Both the position numbers and the translations under genes were made by a program. A DNA stretch of 13,296 bases from Gammaproteobacteria bacterium (GTDB lineage: Bacteria > Pseudomonadota > Gammaproteobacteria > Steroidobacterales > Steroidobacteraceae): contig RFTM01000012.1 of the NCBI GenBank assembly GCA_009923475.1, forward strand, positions 1 to 13,296, read 5' to 3'. Of the stretch, positions 724-13,296 are shown one piece after another. The notes under the pieces are model-generated. The model was not told the origin of the DNA. It did not search any database and worked only from the letters and a program-made list of their open reading frames with translations. Each line of letters begins with the position of its first letter. The stretch's first letter is position 1.

Positions 724-2884
<2,161 letters not shown>

Positions 2885-2942: not shown

Positions 2943-3656
2943 GTGACATCGGACGCCCGACGACCCCGCGGACTGCGCCTGATCTCCTCGATGGCGACGC
3001 GCCACCTGCTCGCCGCGCTGACGGCGGAGTGGGCGGCCCGTGGCGGACCGTCGACGCACATCGAATCGGTGGGAGGCGTGGACGCCGCGCGACGCGTCCG
3101 CGACGGCGACGCCTTCGATGTGGTCGTGCTCGCCGCCGATGCGATGGCCGGGCTCGACGCCGCCGGTCGCCTGCGTCCCGGGAGCCTGCGCGCCCTGGCG
3201 GACTCGCCCGTCGCGATCGCGGTGCAAGCCGGCGCGCCGCGGCCCGACATCGGCAGCGAAGCCGCGTTGCGTGAGGCGGTGCTGCAGGCGCGCAGCATCG
3301 GCTGCTCGACCGGACCGAGCGGGACGGCGCTGATGCGGCTCTTAGAGCGTTGGCGGATCATGGATCTCGTCGCAGACCGCTTGGTGCAGGCGCGCCCCGG
3401 AGTGCCGGTGGGCAGCCTGGTGGCGAGCGGCGAAGCCGCGCTCGGCTTCCAGCAGCTGAGCGAGCTCATGGCATTGCCCGGCATCACGCTGCTCGGCGGC
3501 CTGCCGCCGGGACTCGGGTTGCAGAGCCGCTTCAGCGGCGCCGTGGGCATCGACAGCCCCGTCGCCGACGAGGCGCAGCGCCTGCTCGATTTCATGGCGG
3601 GCCCCGACGCCGCGGACCTGAAGAGCGCCCACGGCATGCAACCCGTCATCGCATGA
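2943..3656 (+). CDS. Cytoplasmic ModA-type substrate-binding-fold protein of the protocatechuate 4,5-cleavage cluster
   Basis: The 237 residues resemble molybdate/anion-binding ModA-family proteins (SBP_bac_11 type). Features are a first strand with a Ser/Met anion-loop candidate (RLISSMATRHLL, 12-23), GGVDAARRVRDGDAFDVVVLAADAM, VAIAVQAGAPRPDI, SIGCSTGPSGTALMRLLERW, then GEAALGFQQLSEL and a C-terminal SAHGMQP. Unlike true periplasmic ModA it has no signal peptide or lipobox: the N-terminus is short and polar (MTSDARRPRG). No ABC permease or ATPase lies nearby. It starts from GTG behind a strong ribosome binding site, 58 bases after pobA and 25 bases before ligJ, so it is probably co-transcribed with the pathway. 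Its role is unknown. It might bind a tricarboxylate pathway intermediate, act as a sensor, or have gained catalysis. True molybdate transport seems unlikely. Confidence 0.75.
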   Translation: MTSDARRPRGLRLISSMATRHLLAALTAEWAARGGPSTHIESVGGVDAARRVRDGDAFDVVVLAADAMAGLDAAGRLRPGSLRALADSPVAIAVQAGAPRPDIGSEAALREAVLQARSIGCSTGPSGTALMRLLERWRIMDLVADRLVQARPGVPVGSLVASGEAALGFQQLSELMALPGITLLGGLPPGLGLQSRFSGAVGIDSPVADEAQRLLDFMAGPDAADLKSAHGMQPVIA

Positions 3657-3681: not shown

Positions 3682-4710
3682 ATGATCATCGACATCCACG
3701 GCCACTACACGACCGCGCCCAAGTCGCTCGAGACCTGGCGCAACCGGCAGATCGCCGGCATCAAGGACCCCGCGCTCAGGCCGCGGGCCGCCGACCTGAG
3801 GATCGGCGACGACGAGCTGCGCGAGACCATCGAGAGCAACCAGCTCCGGCAGATGCGCGCGCGCGGCTCGGACCTCACCGTGTTCAGCCCGCGCGCGAGC
3901 TTCATGGCCCACCACATCGGCGACTTCGAGGTGAGCAGCGCCTGGGCAGCCATCTGCAACGAGCTCTGCCACCGCGTGAGCCGGCTCTTCCCCGACCACT
4001 TCGTGCCGGCGGCGATGCTGCCGCAGAGCCCCGGCGTCGCGCCCGAGACCTGCATCCCGGAACTGGTGCGCTGCGTGGAGCAGTACGGCTGCGTGGCGGT
4101 CAACCTCAACCCCGACCCGTCGGGCGGCCACTGGACCAGCCCGCCGCTCACCGACCGTCACTGGTACCCGATCTACGAGAAGATGGTCGAGTACGGGATC
4201 CCGGCGATGGTGCATGTCAGCACCAGCTGCAACGCCTGCTTCCACACCACCGGCGCCCACTACATCAACGCCGACACCACCGCCTTCATGCAGCTGCTGC
4301 AGGGCGATCTCTTCAAGGATTTCCCGACGCTGAAGTTCGTCATACCGCACGGCGGCGGCGCGGCACCGTACCATTGGGGCCGCTACCGGGGCCTCGCCCA
4401 GGAGCTCAAGAAGCCCCCGCTCAAGGACCACCTGCTCGGCAACGTGTTCTTCGACACCTGCGTCTACCACCAGCCCGGCATCGACCTGCTCACCGATGTG
4501 GTCCCGGTCGCGAACATCCTCTTCGCCTCGGAGATGATCGGCGCGGTGCGCGGCATCGACCCCGAGACAGGCCACCATTACGATGACACCAAGCGCTACA
4601 TCGAGGCCAGCACGCGGCTCGGCGCCGACGATCGGCACGCGATCTACGAACGCAACGCCCGACGCGTCTATCCGCGTCTCGATGCCGTCCTGAAACGACG
4701 GGGGAGATGA
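3682..4710 (+). CDS. ligJ: 4-oxalomesaconate hydratase (LigJ/PmdE type, amidohydrolase superfamily)
   Basis: LigJ adds water to the isomerised form of 4-oxalomesaconate, giving 4-carboxy-4-hydroxy-2-oxoadipate. The 342-residue length matches the LigJ family (about 341). Metal-ligand candidates follow the amidohydrolase pattern: His6 and His8 in MIIDIHGHY, His178 in PAMVHVSTS, His223 in VIPHGGGA, and Glu284 in LFASEMIG, where most relatives carry Asp. The surrounding words NLNPDPSGGHW and VFFDTCVYHQPGIDLL also recall LigJ. AGGAC (3671-3675) ends 6 bases before the ATG. The gene is followed after 3 bases by ligK, whose product uses LigJ's product. This type is distinct from GalB, which catalyses the same hydration but belongs to another family. 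Confidence 0.93.
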   Translation: MIIDIHGHYTTAPKSLETWRNRQIAGIKDPALRPRAADLRIGDDELRETIESNQLRQMRARGSDLTVFSPRASFMAHHIGDFEVSSAWAAICNELCHRVSRLFPDHFVPAAMLPQSPGVAPETCIPELVRCVEQYGCVAVNLNPDPSGGHWTSPPLTDRHWYPIYEKMVEYGIPAMVHVSTSCNACFHTTGAHYINADTTAFMQLLQGDLFKDFPTLKFVIPHGGGAAPYHWGRYRGLAQELKKPPLKDHLLGNVFFDTCVYHQPGIDLLTDVVPVANILFASEMIGAVRGIDPETGHHYDDTKRYIEASTRLGADDRHAIYERNARRVYPRLDAVLKRRGR

Positions 4711-4713
4711 ACC

Positions 4714-5397
4714 ATGTACGAACTCGGGATCGTCCACCGCAACATCCAGCGCGCCGACCGCGCCGTCGCCGACGCGTTGGCGGGATACGGCAGCGCCACG
4801 GTGCATGAGGCCATGGGGCGCGTGGGGCTGCTCAAGCCCTACATGCGCCCGATCTACGGCGGCGCACAGGTGAGCGGCACCGCCGTCACCGTGCTGCTGC
4901 ATCCCGGCGACAACTGGATGATGCACGTCGTCGCGGAGCAGATCGGCCCGGGCGACATCGTGGTCGCGGCGCTCACCGCGGAGTGCACCGACGGCTACTT
5001 CGGGGATCTCCTGGCCACCTCTTTCAAGGCCCGCGGAGCGCGGGGCCTCGTGATCGACGCGGGCGTGCGCGATGTGAAGGCGCTGACGGCCATGGGCTTC
5101 CCGGTGTGGAGCCGCGCGATCAGCAGCAAGGGGACCATCAAGGCCACGCTCGGTTCGGTGAACATCCCGGTGGTCTGCGCGGGCGCGTTGGTCAACCCCG
5201 GTGATGTCATCGTCGCCGACGACGACGGCGTGGTCTGCGTGCCGCGTGCGATCGCCGATGAGACCTTGCAGGTCGCCGCGGCACGCGAAGCCGGCGAGGA
5301 CGCCAAACGGCAGAAGCTGGCTGCGGGCGTCCTGGGTCTCGACATGTACGACATGCGCGGACCGCTCGCGGCGGCGGGCCTCAGGTACATCGACTGA
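4714..5397 (+). CDS. ligK: 4-carboxy-4-hydroxy-2-oxoadipate aldolase / oxaloacetate decarboxylase (LigK/PmdF/ProA)
   Basis: This class II pyruvate aldolase of the RraA-like fold cleaves 4-carboxy-4-hydroxy-2-oxoadipate to pyruvate and oxaloacetate, and usually decarboxylates oxaloacetate as well. The protein has 227 residues, the usual length. The N-terminus [18 protein letters not shown] is typical of LigK. The signature is present in order: GDLLAT (97-102) and DAGVRD (115-120), whose Arg119-Asp120 pair matches the substrate- and metal-binding Arg-Asp of the family. Late motifs are [15 protein letters not shown] (163-177). The ribosome binding site GGGGAGA (4701-4707) overlaps the end of ligJ, implying translational coupling. 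It supplies the last step of the pathway. Confidence 0.94.
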
Positions 5398-5402
5398 ACG
5401 CC

Positions 5403-7665
<2,263 letters not shown>

Positions 7666-7667
7666 CG

Positions 7668-8627
7668 ATGTCGAGCAAGATCAAGGTGGCGTTGGCCGGC
7701 GTCGGCGCGTTCGGCCTGAAGCACATGGACGCGATGCGGACCATCGCCGACGTCGAGGTCATCTCGCTCATCAGCCGTGACCTGGAGAAGACCCGCGAGG
7801 CCGCCGCCAAGTACGGCGTCGCGCATGTGACCACCGAGCTCGCCGAGGCGCTCGCCCTGCCCGGACTGGACGCCGTCATCCTCTGCACGCCGACCCAGAT
7901 GCACGCCCGTCAGGCGCTGGCCTGCCTGGAGGCGGGCAAGCATGTCCAGGTCGAGATCCCGCTCTGCGACATCCTCAGCGAAGGCGAAGCCGTGGTCGAA
8001 CAGGCCGCGCGCAGCGGCAAGGTCGCGATGTGCGGTCACACCCGGCGCTTCAACCCCAGCCATCAGTGGGTGCGTCGCCGCATCAGGGACGGCGGCTTCA
8101 GGATCCAGCAGATGGATGTGCAGACCTACTTCTTCCGGCGCACCAACACCAATGCGCTCGGCCAGCCCCGCAGCTGGACCGACCACCTGCTGTGGCACCA
8201 CGCCGCCCATACGGTCGACCTGTTCGCGCACCAGACCGGCAGCCCCGTGGTGCAGGCGCATGCGATGCAGGGACCCATCCATCCGACGCTCGGCATCGCG
8301 ATGGACATGAGCATCCAGCTGAAGACCGCCGACGGCGCGATCTGCACGTTGTCTTTGAGCTTCAACAACGACGGTCCGCTCGGCACCTTCTTCCGCTACA
8401 TCGGCGACACCGGCACCTACATCGCGCGCTACGACGACCTGTTCGACGGCAAGGACCAGCGGATCGATGTCAGCGGCGTGGCCGTGTCGATGAACGGCAT
8501 CGAACTGCAGGACCGCGAGTTCTTCGCCGCCATCCGGGAGGGACGCGAGCCCGAAGCGGGCGTCGCCCAGGTGCTGCCGTGCTATCAGGTGCTGGACGGC
8601 CTCGAGCGGCAGCTCGCGGTGTCTTGA
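7668..8627 (+). CDS. ligC: 4-carboxy-2-hydroxymuconate-6-semialdehyde dehydrogenase
   Basis: LigC oxidises the hemiacetal form of the LigAB product with NAD(P)+ to 2-pyrone-4,6-dicarboxylate, the substrate of LigI. It belongs to the Gfo/Idh/MocA family rather than to the aldehyde dehydrogenases. The 319 residues begin with a Rossmann motif GVGAFGLKH (11-19). The family's EKP-type region reads GKHVQVEIPLC (90-100), with Ile in place of the usual Lys, as in LigC-type proteins as I recall them. Later come GHTRRFNPSH and WTDHLLWHHAAHTVDLFAHQ, typical of LigC. GGAGGA (7653-7658) ends 9 bases before the ATG, inside the end of ligB. It is the last gene of the run and converges on marR. Confidence 0.95.
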   Translation: MSSKIKVALAGVGAFGLKHMDAMRTIADVEVISLISRDLEKTREAAAKYGVAHVTTELAEALALPGLDAVILCTPTQMHARQALACLEAGKHVQVEIPLCDILSEGEAVVEQAARSGKVAMCGHTRRFNPSHQWVRRRIRDGGFRIQQMDVQTYFFRRTNTNALGQPRSWTDHLLWHHAAHTVDLFAHQTGSPVVQAHAMQGPIHPTLGIAMDMSIQLKTADGAICTLSLSFNNDGPLGTFFRYIGDTGTYIARYDDLFDGKDQRIDVSGVAVSMNGIELQDREFFAAIREGREPEAGVAQVLPCYQVLDGLERQLAVS

Positions 8628-10576: not shown

Positions 10577-12628
10577 ATGCGTCGCACGAAGATGATCGGT
10601 GTGTCCGGAAAGCTCTCGATGCCATGGCTGCTTGCGCTGGTCTGCGCCGCCGCGTCCGCGTCCAGCCCCGCGACCCTCGAATACTCCTGGCTCACCGTCG
10701 ACCGCATATCCGGCTCGCAGACCGTCTCCCGCGACGCCGATGGCCTGACGACGGTCCGTTTCGGATACGCCGATCGCGGCCGCGGTCCGTCGTTCGTGTC
10801 GACCTTCCGTCTCGACACGCAAGGCATCCCGACCGAGTTCGCCGCCAGCGGCGTCAACAACACGCGCGCCTCCATCGACGAGCGTTTCCGCGTCGCCGGC
10901 GGCGTCGCCACCTGGAAGTCTTCGCTCGAGCAGGGTCGTCGCCGGACCCGCGGCCACGAGTTCTTCGTCCCCTTCAACGACACCCCGGAAACGCGTGCGG
11001 TGCTGGCGCGGGCCCTGCTGCGGGCACCCGAGCGCCGGCTCGACCTGCTTCCCGGCGGCAGCGCGACCATCGCGCAGGCCGGCAGCGCCGAGTTCCGCCG
11101 CGACGCGGAGACGCTCCGCGCGACCCTCTACGGCATCAACGGCATCGGCCTCGGGCCGACATTCGTCTGGTTGGACGAGGCAGGCGAGCTCTTCGGCTAC
11201 ACGGATCGGAGCTGGGGTGTCATCCGCCGCGGCTGGGAAGCGAGCATGCCGGCGTTGCGCGCAGCGGAGCGCGGCGCGCTGCAGTCGCATCATGAAGCCA
11301 TCGCCCGCAGCGCATCCCGTGAGCTGACAGGCCTGACGGTGGTCCGGGGCGCACGCATCTTCGACAGCCTCTCGGGTCGCCTGACGGAGCCGTCGACCGT
11401 GTTCGTCTGGGACGGGAAGATCTCCGCGGTGTATCCCGGGCGGGTCGCGGTCCCCGAAGGCGCGTCGCTGGTCGACGGCGAGGGCAAGACGCTCATGCCG
11501 TCGTTGTGGGACATGCACAACCATGTCCAGCTGGTGCATCTGCCGGAGTACCTCGCCTTCGGCATCACCAATGTGCGCGACATGGGCAGCAACTTCGATG
11601 ACCTGCAGTATCTGATGCGCCAGGTCCGCGAGCAGCGTCTTGCCGGACCCGACATCCATCCCATGGGCTTCGTCGACCGCAGGAACGAATTCGCGGCCCC
11701 GGTGGGCATGCTGGCCGACGGACTCGAGAACGCGCTCGGTTTCGTGGACTTCTATGCGCAGCATGGCTACAGCGGACTGAAGCTCTACAGCTCGATCAAA
11801 CCCGAGTGGGTCGCGCCCTTGGCGGAGGCTGCGCACGCGCGCGGCCTGCCGGTGGCCGGCCACATACCCTCGTTCATGTCGCCGGAGGCCGCGATCCGCG
11901 CAGGCTATGACGAGATCACGCATTTCAACCAGTTGCTGCTGGCGTTCGTGGGCGGCGAGCGGATCGACACCCGCGGGCCCGCGCGCTTCCTCGTGCCCGG
12001 GGAGATGGCAGGTCTGGTCGATCCGGAGTCCAAGCAGGTGCAGGATTTCATCGCGCTCATGAAGGCGCGTGATGTCGCTCTCGAACCGACGCTGGCGGTC
12101 ATCATGGAGATGTTCCGCAATCGACCCGGCGAACTGACCCCCATCCTCGCGGACGTCGCCGACCGCCTGCCCGAAGCGGTGCGACGCCGTCAGCTCATGA
12201 CCACCGGCTACAACCAGGGCCGTGAAGCGGCCTTTGCGCGCTCCTCGGACATGCTGCTCAGGCTGATCAAGATCCTGCACCGCTCCGGCGTGCGGATCCT
12301 GCCCGGGACCGACAACCAGTTGCCGGGTTTCACCCTGATCCGTGAACTCATCTACTACACCGAAGCGGGCATCCCGGCGAACGAGGTGCTGCAGTTGGCG
12401 ACGATCGGTTGCGCCCGCCACCTCCGGCTGGCGGACCGCTTGGGCTCGATAGAGCCCGGCAAGGACGCGCAGATGTACCTCATCGACGGCGATCCGCTCG
12501 CCGACATCACTGCGTTGTACCGGGTCGATCAGGTCTTCAAGGGTCGTCGGCTGTACAGCGCGCCGGATCTCCTGCGCGCGCAGGGCTTCATGCCGACGAA
12601 GATCGCCCGTCCGCCCGAGCGCAAGTGA
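10577..12628 (+). CDS. Exported metal-dependent amidohydrolase with an N-terminal accessory domain
   Basis: This 683-residue protein has a signal peptide (about 1-30; hydrophobic PWLLALVCAAASA, probable cleavage near ASA-SS), an N-terminal domain of about 35-250, and a C-terminal amidohydrolase domain of the imidazolonepropionase/prolidase-like subtype. The accessory domain holds FGYADRGRGPSFVSTF and TFVWLDEAGELFGYT; I do not know a function for it. In the catalytic domain the expected binuclear-site residues are present: His314 and His316 (WDMHNHV), Lys402 (GLKLYSS, the carboxylated lysine), His429 (AGHIPSF), His449 (ITHFNQ) and Asp579 (PGTDNQ). Relatives hydrolyse dipeptides or N-acyl amino acids, but the substrate cannot be read here. 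A consensus promoter and GAGG site support the start; Met6 or Met15 would also leave a signal peptide. The next gene follows 14 bases later, indicating an operon. Confidence 0.85.
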   Translation: MRRTKMIGVSGKLSMPWLLALVCAAASASSPATLEYSWLTVDRISGSQTVSRDADGLTTVRFGYADRGRGPSFVSTFRLDTQGIPTEFAASGVNNTRASIDERFRVAGGVATWKSSLEQGRRRTRGHEFFVPFNDTPETRAVLARALLRAPERRLDLLPGGSATIAQAGSAEFRRDAETLRATLYGINGIGLGPTFVWLDEAGELFGYTDRSWGVIRRGWEASMPALRAAERGALQSHHEAIARSASRELTGLTVVRGARIFDSLSGRLTEPSTVFVWDGKISAVYPGRVAVPEGASLVDGEGKTLMPSLWDMHNHVQLVHLPEYLAFGITNVRDMGSNFDDLQYLMRQVREQRLAGPDIHPMGFVDRRNEFAAPVGMLADGLENALGFVDFYAQHGYSGLKLYSSIKPEWVAPLAEAAHARGLPVAGHIPSFMSPEAAIRAGYDEITHFNQLLLAFVGGERIDTRGPARFLVPGEMAGLVDPESKQVQDFIALMKARDVALEPTLAVIMEMFRNRPGELTPILADVADRLPEAVRRRQLMTTGYNQGREAAFARSSDMLLRLIKILHRSGVRILPGTDNQLPGFTLIRELIYYTEAGIPANEVLQLATIGCARHLRLADRLGSIEPGKDAQMYLIDGDPLADITALYRVDQVFKGRRLYSAPDLLRAQGFMPTKIARPPERK

Positions 12629-12642: not shown

Positions 12643-13296
12643 ATGCAACCCGTCGTGGTCGACGCGAAGCTCGCGGCGCAAGTCGTCGAGCGGATCGATG
12701 TACTCGGCGCGATGCGCGCGCTGTTCGCAGGGCTGCACGCCGGCAAGGTGACCCAGCCACCACAGACCCTCGCCCTGCTGCCGGACGGCGGCGGTGGCGA
12801 CTTCATCGCCTACCTCGCGGCGCTCGCCGATCCGCCGGTGTTCGGTGCCAAGCTCTCGCCCTACCTGCCGCGACCCGGCGGCGGCATCGTGACCGCCTGG
12901 ACGCTGCTGATGAGCAGCGAGACCGGCGCCCCGCTGCTGCTCTGCGACTCGCTCGCCCTGACGCGGGAACGCACCGCTGCCACCACCGCGCTCGCCATCG
13001 ATCTGCTCGCGCCGCGCACGGCGACGCGGCTGGCGTTGATCGGCTGCGGAGCGGTCGGGTGCGCCCACCTGAGGCACGTGCTGCCCCTTCGGGACTGGCA
13101 GCAGGTCATGGTCTGGTCACCGCATGCATCCGATCGGGCGGCCGACATCCGCGCGGCGGCGGCCTCGGCGACGATCGCCGGGTCCTTGCGTGAAGCGGTC
13201 GAAGATGCCGAGGTGGTGATGCTCTGCACTTCCGCTGCCGCGGCGGTGGTCGACCCCGCCGAGCTGCCCCACTGCCGGTTGTTGACCTCCATCAGC
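12643..13296 (+). CDS. Ornithine cyclodeaminase / mu-crystallin family protein (3' end beyond window)
   Basis: The frame runs open from ATG 12643 to the window end (218 residues; the family is usually 310-350). It matches the ornithine cyclodeaminase/mu-crystallin/alanine dehydrogenase family. FGAKLSPY holds Lys70, equivalent to the substrate-binding lysine. LCDSLALTRERTAATTALA (100-118) includes the conserved Arg-Thr. LALIGCGAVGCAHLRH (130-145) is the Rossmann nucleotide-binding turn. Family members are NAD(P)-dependent cyclodeaminases, imine reductases or amino-acid/opine dehydrogenases. Where mu-crystallin reads QPVRT, this protein reads QPPQT: Gln41 replaces the arginine that helps hold the substrate carboxylate, so classical ornithine cyclodeaminase activity is doubtful. 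It follows the amidohydrolase by 14 bases and may process an amino acid or imine released by it. Confidence 0.82.
   Translation, partial: MQPVVVDAKLAAQVVERIDVLGAMRALFAGLHAGKVTQPPQTLALLPDGGGGDFIAYLAALADPPVFGAKLSPYLPRPGGGIVTAWTLLMSSETGAPLLLCDSLALTRERTAATTALAIDLLAPRTATRLALIGCGAVGCAHLRHVLPLRDWQQVMVWSPHASDRAADIRAAAASATIAGSLREAVEDAEVVMLCTSAAAAVVDPAELPHCRLLTSIS

Follow-up and report, generated by a model that had tools for sequence, protein, structure and literature searches.

The genes ligU, pmdU and galD are treated as alternatives for one step in the sections of PMC12314914 on which we draw, the one paper found to name pmdU as a pathway gene. PmdU, the Comamonas counterpart of LigU and GalD, heads the pmd operon and very probably belongs to the same SBP_bac_11 family as the protein described here. 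LigU and GalD (PrpF fold, NF033377) appear to serve the same step from the same operon slot as our protein, but their sequences are unrelated to it: at E 0.001, neither PF04303 nor NF033377 matches the window protein. The PmdU of the Comamonas sp. E6 pmd operon was reportedly the subject of Kamimura et al. 2010, and the order of that operon is presumably pmdUKEFDABC. MqnA and MqnD of menaquinone synthesis are enzymes with a periplasmic-binding-protein fold and provide a precedent for cytoplasmic enzymes of this kind, although they are of another family and catalyze other reactions.

A more distant relative has a name of its own. The copy in Pseudarthrobacter phenanthrenivorans Sphe3 is called pcaT, “ABC-type molybdate transport system”, and is given no pathway step in the relevant sections of PMC8431788. 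It is 46% identical to the window protein and is the last gene of a ligJ-ligK-ligI-ligAB-ligC cluster, which places it at the opposite cluster end from our gene and in an actinobacterial host. Some sources likewise label homologues “molybdate transport protein”, and the public records examined carry substrate-binding or molybdate-transport labels only.

The locus and its protein

The window (the whole 13,296-nucleotide stretch of DNA analyzed, part of a Steroidobacteraceae metagenome-assembled genome, MAG) contains pobA, then the gene under study, then ligJ-ligK-ligI-ligABC, and also encodes AraC and MarR regulators (Table 1). Unlike in the Comamonas pmd operon, pobA precedes the gene and no MFS gene separates it from ligJ.

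Table 1 Genes of the aromatic degradation cluster in the window
Gene	Product or role	Position	Strand	Evidence
pobA	4-hydroxybenzoate 3-monooxygenase, feeds protocatechuate	1703..2884	+	TIGR02360, 671.9 bits
pmdU-type gene	cytoplasmic SBP_bac_11 (ModA-fold) protein, proposed 4-oxalomesaconate isomerase	2943..3656	+	PF13531, 123 bits
ligJ/pmdE	hydratase of the isomerized product (KCH)	3682..4710	+	PF04909
ligK/pmdF	CHA aldolase	4714..5397	+	TIGR02798, 396.7 bits (cut-off 304.5)
ligI/pmdD	PDC hydrolase, makes 4-oxalomesaconate	5403..6344	+	PF04909; orthologues in pmd loci
ligA/pmdA	protocatechuate 4,5-dioxygenase alpha subunit (start inferred)	6347..6796	+	ORF, orthologues
ligB/pmdB	protocatechuate 4,5-dioxygenase beta subunit (start inferred)	6799..7665	+	ORF, orthologues
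ligC/pmdC	CHMS dehydrogenase, Gfo/Idh type (start inferred)	7668..8627	+	orthologues, 67–86% identical in loci having ligC

Pfam and fold matches both assign the 237 aa product to the ModA fold (SBP_bac_11), and the PDB structures nearest to its model (pLDDT 94.3) are ModA. No signal peptide was found in the protein, and no ABC permease or ATPase gene (modB/modC) among the window genes adjoining it. An initial annotation had described a ModA-fold protein without signal peptide ahead of ligJ and without ABC partners, and Pfam, fold and window genes confirm this description. A scan against PADLOC returned nothing, and none of the 36 stretches of viral contigs that fit the search pattern encodes a relative.

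In what follows, SBP denotes the family of the window protein within SBP_bac_11, with true members scoring at least 260 bits; neither the matches of a secreted sister family (135–168 bits) nor weaker ones entered any SBP count. Among SBP loci that have ligJ, this neighbor is 75–85% identical.

The missing LigU/PrpF gene noted in the initial annotation is missing from the genome as well: a genome-wide search with PF04303 (PrpF, the LigU family) found no match in the MAG (86.9% complete) or in the same-genus genome G700 (97% complete). A hole in the assembly is an unlikely cause of this gap, since G700 carries the same cluster, 94–98% identical, and also lacks PF04303. Beside the lig cluster the two genomes further share a large amidohydrolase gene (10577-12628 in the window) and a gene of the ornithine cyclodeaminase/mu-crystallin type (12703-13296, cut by the window end).

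Exchange of SBP and LigU

The gene ligJ was searched in 398 genomes of a phylum sample and 296 of an order sample, and SBP and PrpF were then searched in the ligJ-positive genomes (34 and 72, respectively; 105 distinct). SBP was found in 23 of these, LigU in 60, an unclassified, unlinked PrpF of LigU size in 11 and neither in 11, while no genome had both. The LigU count comprises 58 genes within 5 kb of ligJ and those of G229 and G636, which were placed in the LigU clade. Leaving out the 11 unclassified genomes and ignoring kinship, the exclusion of SBP and LigU has a Fisher p of 5.8e-14. These values replace a first tally (22 SBP only, 73 LigU-size PrpF only, 1 both, 9 neither) made before a PrpF tree moved the proteins of G664 (the first “both”), G081 and G608 outside the LigU group.

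The tree, of 50 rows, was built because the NCBIfam model OMA_tautomer also accepts other paralogues. This model is passed by all 20 LigU-size PrpF counted in the phylum sample but not by the two methylcitrate-type PrpF tested, which pass TIGR02334. Some PrpF is present in 26 of 38 SBP genomes, and 8 of 10 tested PrpF from SBP genomes pass OMA_tautomer. Every ligJ-linked LigU placed on the tree (21 of the 58, and in addition that of Paraburkholderia G032) falls in one clade (99*), while the other 37 were counted by linkage and PF04303 score. The PrpF of SBP genomes on the tree lie outside this clade save that of G032, with those of a Pigmentiphaga pair only partly placed, and 14 PrpF neighborhoods examined in SBP genomes contain no ligJ except that of G032. 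This genome carries SBP in one of its two ligJ operons (L067) and LigU in the other (L381).

Several PrpF paralogues (L371-L378, L382, L383) are neither near ligJ nor part of the LigU clade; OMA_tautomer accepts all eight that were scanned and may therefore over-annotate. The neighbors of one of them (L377) we take to be LysR, tripartite-transporter binding protein and tricarballylate dehydrogenase genes.

Kinship was addressed with a ligJ tree of 101 rows, drawn from 100 of the ligJ genes found, on which G664 is still labeled as both and G081 as LigU. Nine changes of the SBP label are needed on this tree, and at least 7 for the SBP-only group are forced by supported branches. Of six supported independent pairs, an average of 5.3 had LigU changing in the direction opposite to SBP and 0.0 in the same direction (sign test, median p 0.0625, range 0.031–0.125). 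Among the 11 genomes with neither gene, seven are listed as 80–95% complete, G608 as 96% and G287, G291 and G081 as 100%. Since G287 (L256) and G291 (L257) have ligJ and lack both genes at a listed completeness of 100%, there may be yet another way of carrying out the step.

The same exchange is seen within one genus. A Comamonas sample comprised 41 genomes of the genus of C. kerstersii, and the 35 with ligJ divide into 22 with SBP and 13 with LigU, with none having both or neither; two of the 22 (G018 and G011) had originally been found through SBP, and two Comamonas genomes are shared with the phylum sample (G120/G732 and G234/G736, with identical coordinates). LigU lies within 5 kb of ligJ in 13 of 13 genomes and SBP in 21 of 22, the exception being G735, where a ligJ fragment is on another contig than SBP. 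One of the six ligJ-less Comamonas genomes has SBP as well. Among 15 loci compared, the order is SBP-PmdK-ligJ in 10 and LigU-PmdK-ligJ in 5, and outside Comamonas LigU is found directly 5′ of ligJ, the place of the window gene, in G332 and G293. The proposal that the gene occupies the isomerase slot is thus borne out by LigU itself standing there. LigJ is 77–80% identical to that of the window in both Comamonas groups, so the swap is not explained by any major change in that enzyme. The suggestion in the initial annotation that the protein might even replace the isomerase is favored by these comparisons, both in Comamonas (22 versus 13) and in the wider samples (0 of 105 ligJ genomes with both).

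The comparison also identifies the family at the head of a described operon. PmdC of G760 is identical over 316 of 316 residues to PDB 9AZO, which is the C. testosteroni PmdC in the relevant part of PMC11489326. The pmd operon of G760 starts with SBP followed by PmdK, and the sole PrpF of this genome is of methylcitrate size; in C. testosteroni-type genomes the head gene of the operon encodes an SBP protein 57–58% identical to the window protein. Four LigU-type Comamonas are 86–89% identical to G760 in PmdC and 58–64% in PmdK. PmdK of nine other SBP-type genomes is 98–100% identical to that of G760 in five (G749, G743, G751, G758, G747) and 61–64% in four, and an identity of 98% between PmdK of C. 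testosteroni KF-1 and Comamonas sp. E6 is given in a section of PMC10154247. Taken together, operon order, the 9AZO match and the PmdK identity indicate that PmdU of strain E6 very probably belongs to the SBP family. The window gene is therefore not an undescribed part, for which it was initially the best candidate: the same family, not the LigU fold, heads the C. testosteroni pmd operon, where PmdU belongs.

Gallate operons and members elsewhere

Gallate operons help to define which step SBP serves. Those of Caballeronia sp. Lep1P3, Burkholderia pyrrocinia and B. multivorans have SBP after, in this order, a gallate dioxygenase gene, an MFS gene, a ligJ-type amidohydrolase gene and ligK, and no ligI, ligC or ligAB is annotated in the stretches examined, whose gene tables are incomplete. 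This composition argues against a role of SBP tied to protocatechuate, CHMS or PDC. Gallate cleavage yields 4-oxalomesaconate (OMA) directly according to sections of PMC12314914 and PMC6888825, and the conversion of OMA to KCH is the sole gallate-operon step without another gene. On two Arthrobacter-type plasmids the SBP gene, labeled as a substrate-binding domain-containing protein in the plasmid records, closes the lig cluster. In two Comamonadaceae clusters, a DUF1932/6-phosphogluconate-dehydrogenase-like gene lies between ligK and ligI (L028:12026-12952 and L193:11463-12395).

A protein search passed 7,954 of 8,000 scored candidates, wider relatives included, and a search of named genome contigs gave at least 594 pattern matches, of which 564 of those listed were confirmed. 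In the best 80 of these 564, which formed our SBP locus set, ligJ is within 5 kb in 63; ligJ or ligK is within 5 kb in 64, and 16 have neither, at least 4 of them near a contig end. Among the 23 SBP genomes of the two samples, SBP is within 5 kb of ligJ in 11 and further away or on another contig in 12, four of the latter being of one genus. Given these unlinked loci and genomes, the family may hold members that do something else away from ligJ.

Two Pigmentiphaga loci (L024 and L068) have no lig genes within 8 kb on each side of SBP, so solitary members do exist and another use of the protein is possible there. In L024 the SBP gene is beside glyoxalase-like and luciferase-like monooxygenase genes, and L068 looks similar. 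In Rhodoferax and Burkholderiaceae MAGs (L022, L080), the SBP gene stands back to back with a LysR-like gene and an additional LigA/LigB pair, which is more distant (41–44% identical); this may be a further ring-cleavage branch with OMA as its end point. Leminorella grimontii L064 encodes, beside a Na_sulph_symp transporter, a secreted family member whose signal peptide is clear, and the cluster may serve uptake; the stretch L064:3251-8690 also holds genes for a LysR-like regulator, LigK and a PIG-L protein that we take to resemble the GalB hydratase. Members of the secreted sister family (L123-L125, L131-L135, L139) occur in several of the same genomes.

Proposed reaction and alternative roles

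Mutual exclusion, the shared operon slot, the gallate operons and the family of the C. testosteroni head gene give good support to SBP as a replacement for LigU. Very likely, the window protein is an isomerase of the PmdU type that acts on 4-oxalomesaconate in place of LigU without being its homologue, with catalysis by SBP being what we infer from the exchange of genes. It is likely, with somewhat less confidence, that the cytoplasmic ModA-fold family is a true 1,3-allylic isomerase convergent with LigU, the two having repeatedly replaced each other, often in the same slot, across Proteobacteria, with an actinobacterial branch. In the pathway we propose, LigI converts 2-pyrone-4,6-dicarboxylate (PDC) to OMA by ring opening, SBP would shift the double bond by a 1,3-allylic proton transfer to give KCH, LigJ adds water to KCH to form CHA, and LigK splits CHA into pyruvate and oxaloacetate.

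The molybdate contacts of E. coli ModA, which we take to be S12, S39, A125, V152 and Y170, align by profile with A18, G45, S126, G153 and Q171 of the window protein, all invariant in a set of 152 rows (some proteins twice). Three side-chain donors of ModA are thus gone, as S12, S39 and Y170 align with A18, G45 and Q171. Also invariant in this set are S16, M17, G44, S122, G124-G127, V156, Q170 and E174, and from the alignment with ModA these residues would be expected to line the cleft. The OMA tri-anion may be held between the two lobes by helix starts at the invariant SSMA, GG, S-T-GPSG and GxPV, perhaps also by the conserved R51 and R146, and the invariant Q170, Q171 and E174 are the best candidates for a role in proton transfer and in polarization of the keto group. 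Q171 and E174 are also present in most of the secreted sister family, with a GFQQ-type motif in most and SGGF or similar in place of SSMAT, so it is the SSMAT, GGV and STGPSG stretches that mark SBP. The family alignment shows no Lys, Cys or His that reaches 95% conservation, and there is therefore no obvious catalytic base.

This last point, together with a fold that is commonly that of a binder and the ligJ linkage in 63 of the best 80 of 564 loci, would suit a non-catalytic protein that binds OMA, or its enol, and passes it to LigJ, the isomerization being spontaneous or carried out by LigJ. Were SBP a mere carrier, it should occur together with LigU, but it swaps with that enzyme and was not found beside it in one operon, and the similar LigJ of both Comamonas groups leaves no large change in LigJ to account for the exchange. 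We consider such a channeling role improbable. Far less probable still is a cytoplasmic sensor of an intermediate: a binding fold inside the operon and without a leader could serve this purpose, but dedicated regulators already adjoin the clusters (AraC and MarR in the window, LysR in the plasmid clusters) and a sensor would not alternate with LigU. The binding, channeling or sensing roles offered by the initial annotation thus lose ground to the isomerase, given that SBP trades places with LigU instead of accompanying it.

A molybdate or other oxyanion-binding protein, or a part of an uptake system, is what the Pfam family, the PDB neighbors and the names of some homologues would suggest, and no TIGR01256 ModA was found in the MAG or in G700. 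ModA is periplasmic, however, whereas the window protein has no leader and no modBC beside it, and signal peptides are absent in 79 of the best 80 of 564 loci; on two plasmids ABC genes lie some 9 kb from SBP, in other gene groups. The window protein is not assigned to the modA family by TIGR01256, against which SBP relatives score 20–43 bits where listed and the secreted Leminorella member 60.1, all below the 62.5 cut-off, and a separate ModA at 152–250 bits is present in 16 of the 18 SBP genomes examined for one. With the presumed ligand side chains also replaced, molybdate uptake by SBP is unlikely, and we give the ModA reading very little weight.

An SBP-type isomerase would fill what looks like a gap in protocatechuate 4,5-cleavage and in the gallate pathway across a large bacterial group. 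The genomes of this group seem incomplete because only the LigU type is recognized by the NCBIfam model of the OMA tautomerase. Such an isomerase would show engineers of PDC or lignin pathways which gene to include, and it is likely a further case of an enzyme that arose from a transport-protein fold.
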